Below are positions 135 to 8,577 of a DNA stretch of 25,776 bases, one piece after another; within the stretch, counting starts at the first letter, position 1, and every line of letters begins with the position of its first letter. This DNA comes from a virus, in IMG/VR virus record IMGVR_UViG_3300046167_000308, positions 1-25,776 of that record, one strand, 5' to 3'. A model generated the notes under the pieces. That model was not told the origin of the DNA, did not search any database, and worked only from the letters and a program-made list of their open reading frames with translations. The translations under genes and the position numbers were made by a program.

Positions 135-173
135 GCCCTCGTGGTGAAATTGGTAGACACAAAGGACTTAAAA
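135..173 (+). other. attP: Putative attP core: 5' half of tRNA-Leu(UAA)
   Basis: These 39 bases read as the 5' acceptor strand, D arm, 5' anticodon stem and the whole anticodon loop (CTTAAAA, anticodon TAA) of a tRNA-Leu. They stop there: the next bases, ACTACGA, do not give the 3' anticodon stem, and no T arm or 3' acceptor strand follows. The first 35 bases match exon 1 of the complete tRNA-Leu at 8297-8577 with one difference (G instead of A at the seventh acceptor base). Tyrosine integrases commonly use tRNA genes as attB, with a tRNA fragment as attP, so this is best read as the phage attachment core. Crossover would join this 5' half to the host 3' half. A decayed tRNA gene is the alternative. 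Confidence 0.72.
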
Positions 174-319
174 ACTACGAACACAATTTACGCCTCCGAC
201 ATATCTACTCTGGCGTAGTAGAATAACATATAATCCAAGCCTTTTAAACTGTTGCGTAGTCAATTCGTGATAGTTACGCTGTCGTAGTAGATGTGCACTT
301 CAATGCACAAAGACTACGA
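173..319. repeat. Cluster of five (G/T)CGTAGT repeats
   Basis: Five copies of a 7-base motif (G/T)CGTAGT lie within 147 bp. The forward copies are 213-219, 254-260 and 282-288. The reverse-strand copies (ACTACGA) are 173-179 and 313-319. The first touches the att core. The bases after the motif are also similar (A/C, any, then A/T-rich). Only about three further copies with ACTACG(A/C) were noticed in the rest of the window (3055-3061, 14932-14938, 19077-19083). Clustering beside an att core fits integrase arm-type sites; operators for a repressor acting on the early promoter are the alternative. Confidence 0.6.
229..234 (+). promoter_or_regulatory. Candidate early host-type -10 box (TATAAT)
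   Basis: A perfect TATAAT occurs about 114 bases before the RNA polymerase start. No good -35 is present at 16-18 bases; TACTCT at 206-211 is the nearest and is poor. It lies between two (G/T)CGTAGT copies, so a protein bound there could occlude it. Early T7-like genes are read by host polymerase, so a host promoter is expected somewhere in 174-340. Confidence 0.35.
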
Positions 320-347
320 ACAAACTATAAACACACATGAGGTAAAT

Positions 348-1325
348 ATGGATATAGACGCTAAAATACTTGAGAAATTTAACATTCTTAAAAGAGACAA
401 GAGTGTGCCTTCAACTCAACATGAAAAAATAGAGGCTCAAAAGACGCTAGAAATAGCTATGGTTAAAAGTGGTATCAAAAGGTTCCACAAGAATATTAAT
501 AAATCCAGAGCTAAACTATCAGACAAAGGCAAAGCCAGGGAAAGTAGTGAGAGCACTACAATTTATGGCCAAGTGCTAATACAGACAGGCTTGGAGCCTT
601 TAAACAGTGCTTTAAACAAATACTTCATAGAAGCATTTGATGGGCATGCCAAAAGATATGCAACTGAAGCTACTTTGTTAGCTAAATGTATTCCTATCCA
701 GGAAGTAGAAACAGAAAATCCAGAGAGGTGGTCTAGTATTAGTTTTATATGTTTAAAAGCTGTACTGGATAGCATCACTGTTTCATCAACCCAAACAAAA
801 GCAGTATTGAAAATAGCTAGTGCTATTGAGGATGAAGCTAGGCTCTTATATTTTAAGGAAAGTGATAACAAGACCTACAGCCAGACTAAAGAATGGCTTA
901 AAACTAAGAACAATTACAGGCATAAAAGGAAGGTATTCCAATATGCTATGAACAAACACCAGTTGGAATACACTGGTTGGTCTAAAGAAGAGAGGGTCAA
1001 ACTAGGTAAATTGTTGCTGGAAATGTTAGCCAGCACCACTGGTTTTATCAAACTTACCAAGACTTATGCTCAAAAGAACAAGTCAATTGTCTATGTCCAG
1101 GCCACTGAAAAAACAATGGAATGGATTGAGCAGAAAAAATTACATGCAGAAATTTTAAAACCATTTAGGGAGCCCATGGTTATTGCACCTAAAAGGTGGG
1201 ACAACAATCCTTATTCTGGTGGGTATGTAATTAAAGATTTGAGGCCAGCTCAATTAGGTTCCACTGTAGGAGAACTTACATCCAAAAATCAACAATCAAC
1301 TGACGAGGTAAAACATGCACTATAA
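348..1325 (+). CDS. T7-type RNA polymerase, N-terminal domain part
   Basis: This 325-residue product matches the N-terminal domain of single-subunit phage RNA polymerase, which binds and melts the promoter. Recognisable blocks are the AIEDEAR segment, a WSKEERVKLGKLLLEML...TTGF block (compare T7 WHKED...CIEMLIESTGM) and APKRW...GGYV (compare PPKPW...GGGYW). The start at 348 is preceded by GAGG at 339-342 with a 5-base gap; an in-frame ATG at 291 lacks such a site. The frame stops at the T7 boundary between N-terminal and polymerase domains, and the polymerase part continues in another frame from 1315. Ten of its 13 arginine codons are AGG, against 4 of 19 in the next gene. Either a real two-polypeptide enzyme or one gene broken by a single-base insertion. 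Confidence 0.88.
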   Translation: MDIDAKILEKFNILKRDKSVPSTQHEKIEAQKTLEIAMVKSGIKRFHKNINKSRAKLSDKGKARESSESTTIYGQVLIQTGLEPLNSALNKYFIEAFDGHAKRYATEATLLAKCIPIQEVETENPERWSSISFICLKAVLDSITVSSTQTKAVLKIASAIEDEARLLYFKESDNKTYSQTKEWLKTKNNYRHKRKVFQYAMNKHQLEYTGWSKEERVKLGKLLLEMLASTTGFIKLTKTYAQKNKSIVYVQATEKTMEWIEQKKLHAEILKPFREPMVIAPKRWDNNPYSGGYVIKDLRPAQLGSTVGELTSKNQQSTDEVKHAL

Positions 1326-3051
1326 TATGGTGAAAAGAGCATCCAGAGCTTATCTGGAAGAAATAGCAAACAGAGCACATGAAATGCCAGAGGTTTATAA
1401 ATGTATAAACACTCTACAGGAAACACCTTTTAAGGTTAATGTTTCTGTTTATCAGGTACTAAAAACAATCCATGAAAAAGGTTTACCACTTGCTGGTTTA
1501 CCTAGTAGTAAAATACCACTACCACCAAAACCTTTTGATATTGGAACCAATGAAGAAGCTAGAAAAGATTATAGTAGGAAAGCTTTAGCTGTTCATAATT
1601 ACAATGCAACAATTGATAGTAAGGCTTTACTTACTGAAAAAATATTTAGTGTTGCAGATACATATGAACAATTTGAAGAATTTTATTTTCCTCTTCAATA
1701 TGATTTTCGTGGCAGAATTTATTGTGTGCCAGAAGGATTAAACTATCAGCAAAATGATTTAGCTAAAGGTTTATTACTTTTTAGAAATGGTAAAAAGATT
1801 GGAACCCAATTAGCTGTAGATAGATTAGCTGTGCATGGTGCCAATATGTATGGTCATGATAAAGATACTTTAGAGAACAGAATAAAATGGGTTAGAGAAA
1901 ATGAAAAATTTATTTTGCAATCTGCTGAAGACCCACATAATAATTATGAGTTCTGGGCTGAAGCATCTGAACCAGTACAATTCTTATCATTTTGTTTTGA
2001 GTGGAATGACTTCTGTAAATCTGGAAAAAGTTTAGACTTTATAACTAATGTAATTTGTTATTCTGATTGTACTAATTCTGGTCTACAAATTTTTTCAGCA
2101 TTACTAAAAGATGAAAAAGGTGGTAATGCAGTAAACCTGGTACCATCTAATAAAGTTCAAGATGTATATGGTGAAGTTGCAAATGCTACTATTGAGTTGC
2201 TTGAAGCAGAACCAGACAGCCAATTAAAAAAGATATGGTTGGACTATGGTATCAACAGGAAGACTACAAAAAAAGTTACCATGTGTATTGTATATGGACT
2301 AACTCAATTTTCTTGTAGGAAATATATTCAAGACCACCTGGAGGAACTTCAAGAAGATGGTATTAAAGATATACCATTCTCTACTGACAGAAATCCTATG
2401 CCTGGTGTGCCTAATATATTTAAAGGTTCAGCATACTTATCTAGGTTTGTATGGAAGGCCTTGGATGAAGTAATTGTATCAGCTAAAGAAGCGATGAAAT
2501 GGTTACAGGATACATCTAAATTAGTTTCAGAAAATGGATTGCCAGTTGTTTGGACTACACCTACAGGGTTTAAAGTTCAGCTAGTTTGTCCAGTATTAGA
2601 AACTAAGAGAATAAATACTTATATGGGAGAAAAAATATTTAGACCCAAAAGTAATACCTATACTCCAGACATCAAGAAAACTACAATAGCAGTGGAGACT
2701 AACAAGATAGACAAGCGTAAAGTATCTAATAGTATTTCACCTTGTTTTGTTCACGCACTCGATGGCGCTGTCCTTCAAAAGGCTGTGAGTAAAGCTAAAG
2801 ATTACAACATAGAAAACTTTGCTTGTGTCCATGATAGCTTTGGTGTCCTGGCAACAGATGTTCAATTGATGAACCAATCATTAAGAGAAGCGTTTGTTGA
2901 AATATTTGATGGGAAAAATTTACTTGAAGAATTTAAAGATGAAATGCTCCCACAAATTCAAAAAGAAAAACAACACAAAATAAAACCTACTCCAAAACAA
3001 GGCACTCTGGAATTGAAGAATGTATTGGGTAGTTATTATTTCTGTAGTTAA
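1315..3051 (+). CDS. T7-type RNA polymerase, catalytic domain part
   Basis: This 578-residue product holds the palm and fingers of T7-family RNA polymerase, which transcribes the middle and late phage genes. Visible motifs are MPEVYKCIN near the start, the motif A aspartate D251 (YSDCTNSGLQIFSALLKDE), motif B R315...K319...Y327 with T7 spacing (R627, K631, Y639), H480 in PCFVHALDG, and motif C HDSFG with D507. The C-terminus ends with an aromatic foot (YYFCS; T7 ends FAFA). The ATG at 1315 has GAGG at 1305-1308 six bases upstream and overlaps the preceding stop by 11 bases, so translational coupling is possible. Removing one base in 1312-1325 would fuse both parts into a 900-residue protein, close to T7's 883. 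Confidence 0.93.
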   Translation: MHYNMVKRASRAYLEEIANRAHEMPEVYKCINTLQETPFKVNVSVYQVLKTIHEKGLPLAGLPSSKIPLPPKPFDIGTNEEARKDYSRKALAVHNYNATIDSKALLTEKIFSVADTYEQFEEFYFPLQYDFRGRIYCVPEGLNYQQNDLAKGLLLFRNGKKIGTQLAVDRLAVHGANMYGHDKDTLENRIKWVRENEKFILQSAEDPHNNYEFWAEASEPVQFLSFCFEWNDFCKSGKSLDFITNVICYSDCTNSGLQIFSALLKDEKGGNAVNLVPSNKVQDVYGEVANATIELLEAEPDSQLKKIWLDYGINRKTTKKVTMCIVYGLTQFSCRKYIQDHLEELQEDGIKDIPFSTDRNPMPGVPNIFKGSAYLSRFVWKALDEVIVSAKEAMKWLQDTSKLVSENGLPVVWTTPTGFKVQLVCPVLETKRINTYMGEKIFRPKSNTYTPDIKKTTIAVETNKIDKRKVSNSISPCFVHALDGAVLQKAVSKAKDYNIENFACVHDSFGVLATDVQLMNQSLREAFVEIFDGKNLLEEFKDEMLPQIQKEKQHKIKPTPKQGTLELKNVLGSYYFCS

Positions 3052-6528: not shown

Positions 6529-8292
6529 ATGAGAGTAATATTTGATTTAGAAACAAATGGTTTCTTATCAGATGCAACCAAAATACATTCAATTGTAATT
6601 AAAGATATAGATACCAAACAAGTCTTCTCATATCATGGAGATAAAATTGGTAGAGGTTTATATATTTTAAGTGGCGCTAGCTTATTAGTTGGCCACAATA
6701 TTTTAAAATTTGATTTACCTGTCATAGAAAAATTATATCCAGAATATAAAATTGAAGGTGAAGTGTTTGACACTTTACTGGTTAGCAGATTGATATGGAC
6801 TAATAGAAAAGAACTAGACTTTCAAATGAAAGAACTGCCATTAAATTTAGCAGGAAGACATTCATTAGAAAGCTGGGGTTATAGACTAGGTTTAAGAAAA
6901 GGTGACTATGCGAAAGAGAATGACTTCTCTGTATGGACACCAGCTATGCAAACATATTGTGAGAGGGATGTAGAAGTAACTTATGAATTTTTCAAATTAA
7001 TTGAAAAACAAAATTACTCTACTGAAGCAATCAAGTTAGAGCACGACTTTGCCAGATGTATATATCTGCAAGAAGCACATGGATTTCATTTTGATGTGGC
7101 TTCTGCAAAGAAGCTGTATGCCTCACTTGCAAACAGGAGGTTGGAGCTAGAGAAATCTTTAGTTTCAACCTTCCCAAATTGGAAAAAATATATTGGTACC
7201 TTCATACCTAAAAGAGACAACAAAACTCTTGGTTATAAAAAAGGTGTGCCAATTAAAAGGTATAAAGAATTAACTTTTAATCCTAATTCAAGAGACCACA
7301 TATCTGATAGGTTAATGAACAAAGGATGGAAGCCTAGAGAATTTACACCAGATGGTAAACCAAAAGTGGATGAAAGTGTTTTATCAAAACTAATTTATCC
7401 AGAAGCTAAATTATTAGCTGAACATTTTTTAATACAAAAACGAATAGGACAACTAGCCGAAGGAAACAACGCCTGGTTAAAATTACAAAGGGATGGAATA
7501 TTATATGGAAGCGTTATCACAAATGGTGCGAACACTGGTAGGTGCACTCACCAAAAACCTAATGTTGCTCAAACACCTTCAGTTGGTGTTCCTTATGGTA
7601 AAGAATGTAGGTCTCTATTTACTGTTCCTAATGGTTTTCAGCTTATTGGTTGTGACGCTAGTGGTCTCGAACTTCGTTGTCTTGCTCATTATATCGGTGC
7701 GTTCGATGAAGGAAGTTTTACGAAGCAATTACTCCATGGGGATATTCACACCTACAATCAAAAACAGATTGGCTTACCAACAAGAGATTTGGCGAAGAGG
7801 GTCATCTATGGTTGCATCTATGGCATCGGAGATACAAGGCTTGGTGCAGTTGTTGGGAAAAGCTCCCAAGAAGGAAAAAGAATAAAAGCAAAATTATTTG
7901 AAGCATTACCAGCATTAAAACAATTGAGAGATAATGTTATTATTGCAACAAGAAATAAAAAATATTTATTAGGTTTAGACAAAAGAAAATTAATTCCAAG
8001 GTCTGAACATTCAAGTTTAAATTTATTAATACAAAGCTGTGGCGCATTAATTATAAAAATGGCTACAGTTATTTTACATAAAAAATTAGAGGAAAAAAAA
8101 TATGATAAGAATATCTGTACTATGGTTGCTCATGTTCATGATGAGTTACAACTTCAGTGTAAGTCTGATTACGCTGATGAAGTAGGAAAGATTGCTGTGC
8201 AATCAATTAAAGATGCAGGTACATATTTTAATTTAAGATGTCCTTTAGATGCTGAATATAAAATAGGAAACAATTGGGCTAGTACCCATTAG
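6529..8292 (+). CDS. DNA polymerase, family A with 3'-5' exonuclease (T7 gp5-like)
   Basis: The 587-residue replicative polymerase has an N-terminal proofreading domain: D6 and E8 (FDLET), D62 (HNILKFD), Y143...D147 (YCERD). The polymerase core has motif A D376 (DASGLELRCLAHY), motif B K423...Y427 (KRVIYG; T7 K522, Y526) and motif C H537-D538 (HVHDEL), ending NNWASTH like T7. It is shorter than T7 gp5 (704). The segment before FNPNSRDH (about residues 212-249) is clearly shorter than the T7 thioredoxin-binding loop, so host thioredoxin may not bind in the T7 way. Codon use changes locally at about 7560-7870, towards CTT, CTC and CGT. The stop is four bases from the 3' end of the opposing tRNA gene. 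Confidence 0.96.
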   Translation: MRVIFDLETNGFLSDATKIHSIVIKDIDTKQVFSYHGDKIGRGLYILSGASLLVGHNILKFDLPVIEKLYPEYKIEGEVFDTLLVSRLIWTNRKELDFQMKELPLNLAGRHSLESWGYRLGLRKGDYAKENDFSVWTPAMQTYCERDVEVTYEFFKLIEKQNYSTEAIKLEHDFARCIYLQEAHGFHFDVASAKKLYASLANRRLELEKSLVSTFPNWKKYIGTFIPKRDNKTLGYKKGVPIKRYKELTFNPNSRDHISDRLMNKGWKPREFTPDGKPKVDESVLSKLIYPEAKLLAEHFLIQKRIGQLAEGNNAWLKLQRDGILYGSVITNGANTGRCTHQKPNVAQTPSVGVPYGKECRSLFTVPNGFQLIGCDASGLELRCLAHYIGAFDEGSFTKQLLHGDIHTYNQKQIGLPTRDLAKRVIYGCIYGIGDTRLGAVVGKSSQEGKRIKAKLFEALPALKQLRDNVIIATRNKKYLLGLDKRKLIPRSEHSSLNLLIQSCGALIIKMATVILHKKLEEKKYDKNICTMVAHVHDELQLQCKSDYADEVGKIAVQSIKDAGTYFNLRCPLDAEYKIGNNWASTH

Positions 8293-8296
8293 TTGT

Positions 8297-8577
8297 TGGT
8301 GCCCTCAGACAGACTCGAACTGTCACTCCCAAAAGGGCAAGGATTTTCGTACCACTATAGCTTTCGCTACACTTTCGTTTTGTGGTCTGGACTATACCTT
8401 AAGCAGTTAAGCTTCCTAGTGTCTAGTCTCTACACCTCACATTCCTCAAAATGTTTTGGCTCGGTATTAGCATTTAAAAGCTTTCACCGAATTTACCAGG
8501 TTCTACTTCCGAGCTTTCGCTTGGAGCACTCAAATTAAATTTAAGTCCTTTGTGTCTACCAATTTCACCATGAGGGC
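8297..8577 (-). tRNA. tRNA-Leu(UAA) interrupted by a group I intron
   Basis: On the minus strand, exon 1 is 8577-8543 and exon 2 is 8347-8297. Joined, they give an 86-nt tRNA-Leu. It has a 7-bp acceptor stem (GCCCTCA with TGAGGGC), discriminator A and an encoded CCA. The anticodon stem is AAGGA/TCCTT with loop CTTAAAA (anticodon TAA). There is a leucine-type long variable arm (CCC TTTT GGG), and the T stem is GACAG/CTGTC with loop TTCGAGT. The intron falls between U34 and A35, the same place as the cyanobacterial and plastid tRNA-Leu(UAA) intron. It is the only clear gene on the minus strand, so it is not read by the phage late transcripts and needs its own promoter. Confidence 0.93.
8348..8542 (-). 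ncRNA. Compact group I intron in tRNA-Leu(UAA)
   Basis: The 195-nt intron has the conserved group I core on the minus strand. A Q-like element (AATACCGAGCC) is followed by an R-like element (GTGTAGAGACTAGACAC) and an S-like element (AAGGTATAGTCC). P7 can form from GACTA and TAGTC. The exon end ACTT pairs with GAGT near the intron 5' end, leaving the U-G wobble at the splice site (P1). The last intron base is G, as required. A GCGAAAGC hairpin near the 3' end resembles one in cyanobacterial tRNA-Leu introns. There is no endonuclease gene inside. Size is slightly below the 250-nt class, implying reduced peripheral helices. Confidence 0.9.

Follow-up and report, generated by a model that had tools for sequence, protein, structure and literature searches.

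Gene content of the window

We analysed positions 1 to 25,776 of IMG/VR record IMGVR_UViG_3300046167_000308, a stretch of 25,776 nucleotides that is hereafter called the window. It appears to be the left end of a prophage lying inside the anticodon loop of the tRNA-Leu(UAA) gene of a SAR11 host, and it carries the following features.

1-134, no strand assigned: SAR11 host chromosome flanking the prophage on the left, in which 61-134 matches the sequence that precedes the tRNA-Leu(UAA) gene in the host
135-173, plus strand: attL, in which the 5' half of the host tRNA-Leu(UAA) runs into the 9-bp core GACTTAAAA (165-173), with phage sequence from 174 (comparison with phage L128)
291-1325, plus strand: T7-like RNA polymerase encoded in two ORFs, N-terminal part (Pfam RPOL_N, 1.7e-9)
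1315-3051, plus strand: C-terminal catalytic part of the RNA polymerase (Pfam RNA_pol, 4.3e-86)
6529-8292, plus strand: DNA polymerase A, whose 3' end adjoins the antisense tRNA gene (Pfam DNA_pol_A, 1.6e-45)
8297-8347, minus strand: exon 2 of the phage tRNA-Leu(UAA), from A35 to CCA (read from the sequence)
8348-8542, minus strand: group I intron of 195 nt between U34 and A35 (RF00028, 51.3 bits for 8552-8367; covariation among relatives)
8543-8577, minus strand: exon 1 of the phage tRNA-Leu(UAA), ending at U34 (read from the sequence)

From the junction onward, the window runs through RNA polymerase, replication and structural genes. The phage belongs to the Autographiviridae, and its nearest named record is KT997847 (Chosvirus), with an RNA polymerase 54% identical to that of the window. 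There is no integrase gene within the window. A tyrosine integrase (PF00589, E = 2e-11) is found in phage L128, whose RNA polymerase is 100% identical to that of the window; in the window, which begins at attL, the integrase would be expected past the right end. We also observed that the T7-like RNA polymerase is split over two overlapping ORFs (291-3051), that this split recurs in the SAR11 prophage G110, where the C-terminal half is 43% identical, and that the annotation of KT997847 has two adjacent RNA polymerase genes.

The left junction

The first-pass annotation had read 135-173 as a likely attP core formed by the 5' half of tRNA-Leu(UAA). The tRNA half is indeed there, but the site is attL and not attP. 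A blastn search of 1-134 against SAR11 loci gave matches of up to 95.9% identity over 74 bases (E = 1.3e-28; L180, L223 and L289), and no match was found in the phage loci L127-L169 and L421-L462. Where the window has AAAGGACTTAAAAACTACG, L128 reads GGAGGTAGACTTAAAAACTACG, and only GACTTAAAA is common to both. An attP with a tRNA 5' half between the integrase and the RNA polymerase does exist in HTVC105P and HTVC109P, so that a long, tRNA-restoring core at 135-173 was a reading worth weighing; given that the sequence to its left matches the SAR11 chromosome, and that the near-identical phage L128 has phage sequence and no tRNA half at that place, we reject it as having next to no chance of being correct.

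Similar attL-like junctions occur in L145 and L436 and, for tRNA-Leu(UAG), in L450. Their left flanks match SAR11 sequences weakly in L145 and L450 and not at all in L436. The attP sites of the window clade carry only GTAGACTTAAAA or similar sequences, tRNA halves being present only at host junctions (the window, L145 and L436), so that these attP sites lack the long tRNA half of the HTVC105P type. The core shared by attP and attB is about 9 bp long and lies inside the tRNA gene; it consists of the anticodon loop and one or two further bases. The junction sequences show that integration cuts the host tRNA-Leu(UAA) in half at the anticodon loop and does not rebuild it, since about 9 bp are all that attP and attB share.

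The right junction and the host tRNA gene

A strict attR pattern gave no matches in IMG/VR. A DNA search of 397 SAR11 genomes yielded one attR instead, in G287, where a related prophage has an integrase 78% identical to that of L128, followed by ATTTGTCGGTAGACTTAAAA joined to the 3' half of the host tRNA. On this contig, 9 of the 11 window proteins used as queries were matched at 67-93% identity; the two unmatched proteins, RNA polymerase and DNA polymerase, both come from the left half of the prophage, which is missing from the assembly. Neither a group I intron nor a phage DNA polymerase was matched in G287, and an intact tRNA-Leu(UAA) was not found in this incomplete assembly with the patterns used. 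The evidence that the host tRNA is not rebuilt thus combines attL from the window with attR from G287, two separate genomes of the UAA type; among the assemblies examined, none held a UAA prophage with both junctions and the intron-bearing tRNA.

The tRNA-Leu(UAA) pattern was present in 308 of the 397 SAR11 genomes and occurred twice, by our reading of the matches, in only 11; genomes in which the gene is found thus nearly always have one copy. UUA codons are decoded solely by tRNA-Leu(UAA). In the window, TTA is the dominant leucine codon, as had been noted from the sequence, with 367 of the 543 leucine codons across 17 ORFs. Given a host gene that is almost always single, a codon that needs it and a phage rich in that codon, the phage tRNA-Leu(UAA) probably replaces the lost host function. 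The earlier suggestion that the spare tRNA keeps UUA decoding going is plausible in this light, because integration splits the host gene.

Several side observations concern the same host gene. In the SAR11 loci L171-L288, tRNA-Leu(UAA) looks like an integration hotspot, with 47 of 148 tRNA-half matches running into other sequence, and many of these junctions have AGTC-type repeats that resemble integrase arm sites by eye. In L207 (4476-5700) and L265 (3827-4300, minus strand), an intact tRNA-Leu(UAA) is followed by a second 3' half behind GAGTAGACTTAAAA; these second halves were probably left behind by elements whose core, a 3' half, restores the tRNA.

The intron-split tRNA-Leu(UAA) of the window

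The minus strand from 8577 to 8297 encodes a tRNA-Leu(UAA) split at U34|A35 by a 195-nt intron with G as its last base, exactly as first described. The Infernal check against Rfam RF00028 that had been proposed gave 51.3 bits (E = 1.7e-10), barely above the gathering score of 50. With cmscan, the intron loci of 7 of 10 relatives were above the cut-off (L012, L033, L048, L092, L130, L141 and L154), and those of L137, L145 and L421 did not reach it; the introns of two unrelated phages, L003 and L004, were also below it. The splice junctions read CTT|AAATTTAATTTGAG...GTACG|AAAA, where the U at the 5' splice site pairs, by eye, with a guide G and the intron ends in G. In an alignment of 13 introns, 26 of the 54 predicted pairs showed at least one compensatory change, which suggests that the intron structure is probably under selection.

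ARAGORN with default settings called no tRNA in the window, as expected for a tRNA interrupted by an intron. Compared with the nearest SAR11 host tRNA, the spliced product has no differences at the 10 anticodon-stem sites and 4 at the other 69. A promoter scan near the tRNA found 3 sites against 2.9 expected and thus gave no signal; one terminator-like hairpin lies directly after the tRNA, against 0.4 expected.

Intron and anticodon stem among relatives

Before the second scan, we set the prediction that intron-bearing tRNAs keep the host anticodon stem and intronless ones do not. The scan covered 80 of the 288 loci found by DNA polymerase, overlapping the first set in some contigs; a tRNA-Leu(UAA) was present in 46, and in the other 34 no tRNA lay within reach. 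The stem AAGGA/TCCTT was kept in all 23 intron-bearing loci, while a different stem was found in 20 of the 23 intronless loci. Among SAR11 hosts, 125 of the 131 tRNA-Leu(UAA) stems read were AAGGA/TCCTT, although 101 of these tRNAs had been fetched with a pattern that requires the 5' side of this stem; the other 30, from a looser pattern, comprised 24 with AAGGA/TCCTT, 3 with ACGGA and 3 with CGAGA. Two of the 20 differing intronless loci (L550 and L553) have ACGGA/TCCGT, a stem shared by 3 of the 131 host tRNAs. Three distinct intronless tRNAs (L551, L555 and L564) keep AAGGA/TCCTT and so break the prediction. They have 12-23 other differences from the sampled SAR11 tRNAs, and no integrase was matched in their contigs, which are fragments.

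Next, we compared the phage tRNAs with their nearest host alleles. Six distinct intron-bearing tRNAs, pooled from both sets with the flanking base left out and L524 included (the earlier set counted without that base gives five), showed 0 differences at 60 stem sites and 20 at 414 sites elsewhere, and two of them, once spliced, equal host alleles exactly. None of the intronless phage tRNAs examined equals a sampled host allele. Six intronless tRNAs are near-host, defined by a cut-off of at most 8 differences that was chosen afterwards, and these showed 15 differences at 60 stem sites against 10 at 414 sites elsewhere (Fisher, 8e-9). In three of them, the differences from the host are confined to the stem: the L427 type and L544 are host alleles but for one compensatory anticodon-stem pair, and the L424 type but for one stem base. 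When all 19 distinct intronless tRNAs were taken, the excess was weak (stem 41/190, elsewhere 199/1312, p = 0.03). For L424 and L427, two of these three cleanest recoded tRNAs, the attP core is preceded by GT and not by GA (GTCTTAAAA), which makes their target less certain.

At least three changes in intron presence are needed on an RNA polymerase tree, and three independent contrasts all agree with the stem state; for the stem trait, the values of the intron trait were used, the two being identical in these 23 rows, and the L012 row is poor, with a broken frame (16 stops in the best frame, masked). The phylogenetic sign test gave p = 0.25, three switches being too few to reach significance.

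A tRNA-Leu(UAA) that is absent from the feature table of the record was also seen in HTVC119P (L419, 2947-3032); its stem is CACGA/TCGTG, it adjoins the integrase, and a short GACTTAAAATC motif stands before the RNA polymerase. HTVC200P has a nearly identical tRNA.

A parallel system at tRNA-Leu(UAG)

An RNA polymerase search of the 397 SAR11 genomes gave only three positives (G110, G181 and G186), all from a distant UAG group with RNA polymerases 42-43% identical. Here integration has taken place in tRNA-Leu(UAG) with the core GTCTTAG, both junctions are visible and the host tRNA is not rebuilt. A complete tRNA-Leu(UAG) lies directly inside the right junction. In each genome, the tRNA pattern matches only this recoded tRNA of the prophage and the split host 5' half. 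The isotype of the phage tRNA is that of the tRNA containing the att core, in the UAA group as well as in the UAG group.

These genomes allow the phage tRNA to be compared with the 5' half of its own host. G186 has 4 differing sites, of which the five-base stem contains 3. In G110, 2 of the 5 stem sites and 6 of the 27 sites in the rest of the 5' half differ, and in G181, 3 of 5 and 8 of 26. Two of the three same-genome comparisons (G110 and G181) thus have many changes outside the stem too, which counts against stem-specific rewriting. Among IMG/VR phages of the UAG group, 11 of the 12 tRNAs called have the stem CCAGT/ACTGG, and CTGGT or TTGGT is read in the host half at each of the four UAG junctions observed. 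A survey of UAG hosts (48 of 147 genomes) relied on a pattern unable to match the phage-type stem, and is uninformative on its presence in hosts.

Proposed guarding of the spare tRNA

Taken together, we consider it rather likely that the SAR11 prophage breaks the host tRNA-Leu(UAA) and carries a complementing copy that is guarded by an intron or by a rewritten stem. The prophage's own tRNA-Leu(UAA), antisense to the replication genes, would supply the lost reader of UUA. To the phage integrase, a spare copy with the host anticodon arm would be one more attB, so that the self-directed attack envisaged in the first-pass annotation seems a real problem: the 8.4 kb from attP to the tRNA would be inverted, or another copy could integrate into the tRNA, and the complementing gene would be killed. 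Inserted at U34|A35 inside the anticodon loop, the intron does split the stretch that would serve as the recombination core, as had been pointed out. It may act as a guard by parting the half-sites, namely the two arms of the anticodon stem, by about 195 bp in the DNA, with splicing restoring a normal tRNA. Rewriting of the anticodon stem, with the rest of the tRNA staying near that of the host, may be the other guard. This protective reading draws its support from the alternation of intron and changed stem among relatives, and not from the presence of the intron alone. We lean slightly towards a wider statement, that phages breaking an essential host tRNA must hide the replacement from their own integrase, and that an intron in the anticodon loop and a pair-preserving rewrite of the stem are interchangeable means to this end in SAR11 phages.

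If this speculation is true, then a group I intron would have a natural role as the guard of a recombination site, and a selfish element would gain a use at the DNA level, splitting the site without altering the RNA product. It would also extend tRNA-dependent lysogeny to phages that use the SAR11 tRNA-Leu(UAA), and would account for odd anticodon stems in phage tRNAs. The general prediction would be that the spare tRNA of a target-destroying phage differs from attB in the integrase-bound arms or is interrupted, a rule that also predicts sequences in known tRNA-dependent phages.

We also considered that the tRNA complements the broken host gene while the intron is a neutral selfish passenger and the stem changes of the intronless tRNAs come from drift or a foreign origin. 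In about 50 of 120 IMG/VR stretches among the matches listed, a group I intron with this core has tRNA-like sequence, of several tRNAs, nearby, and the same insertion site is used in huge or jumbo phages; the independent switches number only three, three intronless tRNAs are exceptions and two loci have a stem that some hosts share. Such a passenger is possible, if doubtful. Drift, however, would not place 15 of 25 differences in 10 of 79 sites, and three intronless tRNAs match a host allele save for one compensatory stem pair (the L427 type, L544) or one stem base (the L424 type). Moreover, identity to a host allele is found in two intron-bearing tRNAs and in no intronless one examined.

That the tRNA serves mainly lytic translation, with the match to the integration site being incidental, would suit the dominance of TTA among the phage leucine codons (367/543). 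We regard this as improbable, since SAR11 hosts already have a tRNA-Leu(UAA) (308 of 397 genomes by pattern), the gene runs antisense to the phage genes around it and has the isotype of the att core in both groups, and no tRNA was called anywhere in the genome of HTVC109P, whose long core restores the gene. The anticodon-arm changes and the intron might also evade host defences that cut tRNAs, and van den Berg (2023) reportedly described phage tRNAs with anticodon-loop mutations of that kind. Here, all 25 distinct phage tRNA-Leu(UAA) sequences have an unaltered anticodon loop and two spliced intron-bearing tRNAs equal the host tRNA, so that a nuclease acting on mature tRNA would cut phage and host molecules alike; evasion of this kind seems very improbable.

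Relation to known systems

The first-pass annotation knew of no description of the pairing of such an integration site with a phage tRNA and its intron. Part of it is known: a short core with a phage copy of the broken tRNA has been published (PMC10865867; PMC6811365), and a link to the intron was not found in the literature searched. Dependence of lysogeny on a phage tRNA was named and genetically proved in mycobacteriophages in 2024 (Guerrero-Bustamante & Hatfull, PMC10865867). According to the sections on the system, Fionnbharth, LeBron and others, like the window phage, use a tyrosine integrase and recombine within a host tRNA gene at a core of about 10 bp, do not rebuild the gene and carry a phage tRNA of the same isotype; the hosts and the phage family are different, and a group I intron in the core of the spare is a feature of the window. 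Those sections discuss no protection of the spare tRNA, and the word 'intron' occurs only in the reference list. They do contain the speculation that colony variation arose from a second plasmid using the plasmid-borne phage tRNA gene as attB (PMC10865867), which, by analogy, is the very danger proposed here.

With the host attB taken from the core descriptions in that paper, LeBron has GGACTTTTAATCC in attP against CGCCTTTTAAGCG in its own tRNA, and Fionnbharth has AACTTTTAATC against GGCTTTTAACC. A segment of 17 bp in LeBron is described there as identical to the host tRNA gene (PMC10865867). The mismatch between attP and tRNA fits the guarding rule, and a foreign origin of the tRNAs could explain it too. 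The attP core of Gaia was not found by eye.

Closer to SAR11, a 2019 report placed the Fonsibacter prophage uv-Fonsiphage-EPL, HTVC011P and HTVC025P at tRNA-Leu(TAG), with an 11-bp core and a replacement tRNA-Leu (PMC6811365). The hosts are of the SAR11 group, the phages are related podoviruses and our UAG group resembles them; this system differs in using UAG and not UAA, and the parts of the report consulted mention neither an intron nor a phage/host difference in the anticodon stem. The Pelagivirus phages HTVC105P and HTVC109P likewise have an integrase and attP before the RNA polymerase and the same target tRNA, judged by its 5' half; unlike in the window clade, their attP holds a tRNA 5' half able to rebuild the gene, and no spare tRNA was called in the whole genome of HTVC109P or in the first 12.7 kb of HTVC105P. 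In the literature searched, which mostly leaves out subscription papers, no paper linked a group I intron to tRNA-dependent lysogeny, so the new part may be how the spare tRNA escapes the integrase.

Distribution of the intron beyond the clade

It had been proposed to check whether the intron occurs only in phages with a tRNA-Leu(UAA) att site. It does not: a huge phage of 735 kb and Agrobacterium phage Atu_ph07 share this insertion. The figure of about 50 in 120 given above comes from a crude motif test of L290-L405, among the matches listed, where introns with this core lie near several kinds of phage tRNA; one early intron pattern was too loose, with an intron in few of the stretches it found and a chance TTGAG in intronless tRNAs in the others. 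As the intron is common in phage tRNAs and uses the same site in unrelated phages, it would at most have been co-opted, and not invented, for guarding.

The tRNA-Leu(UAA) genes of cyanobacteria and plastids also have group I introns at U34|A35 with a similar core. The gene and the insertion site are thus the same, but those introns are chromosomal, whereas that of the window is phage-borne and lies in a prophage recombination core. According to the part consulted of a 2014 review, all phage introns observed by then were in protein genes, despite the many phage tRNAs (PMC3984707). In the capsid gene region of HTVC120P (MH598807.1, 19655-19807), we found a match to the intron core at 69%, which suggests a related intron in a structural gene.
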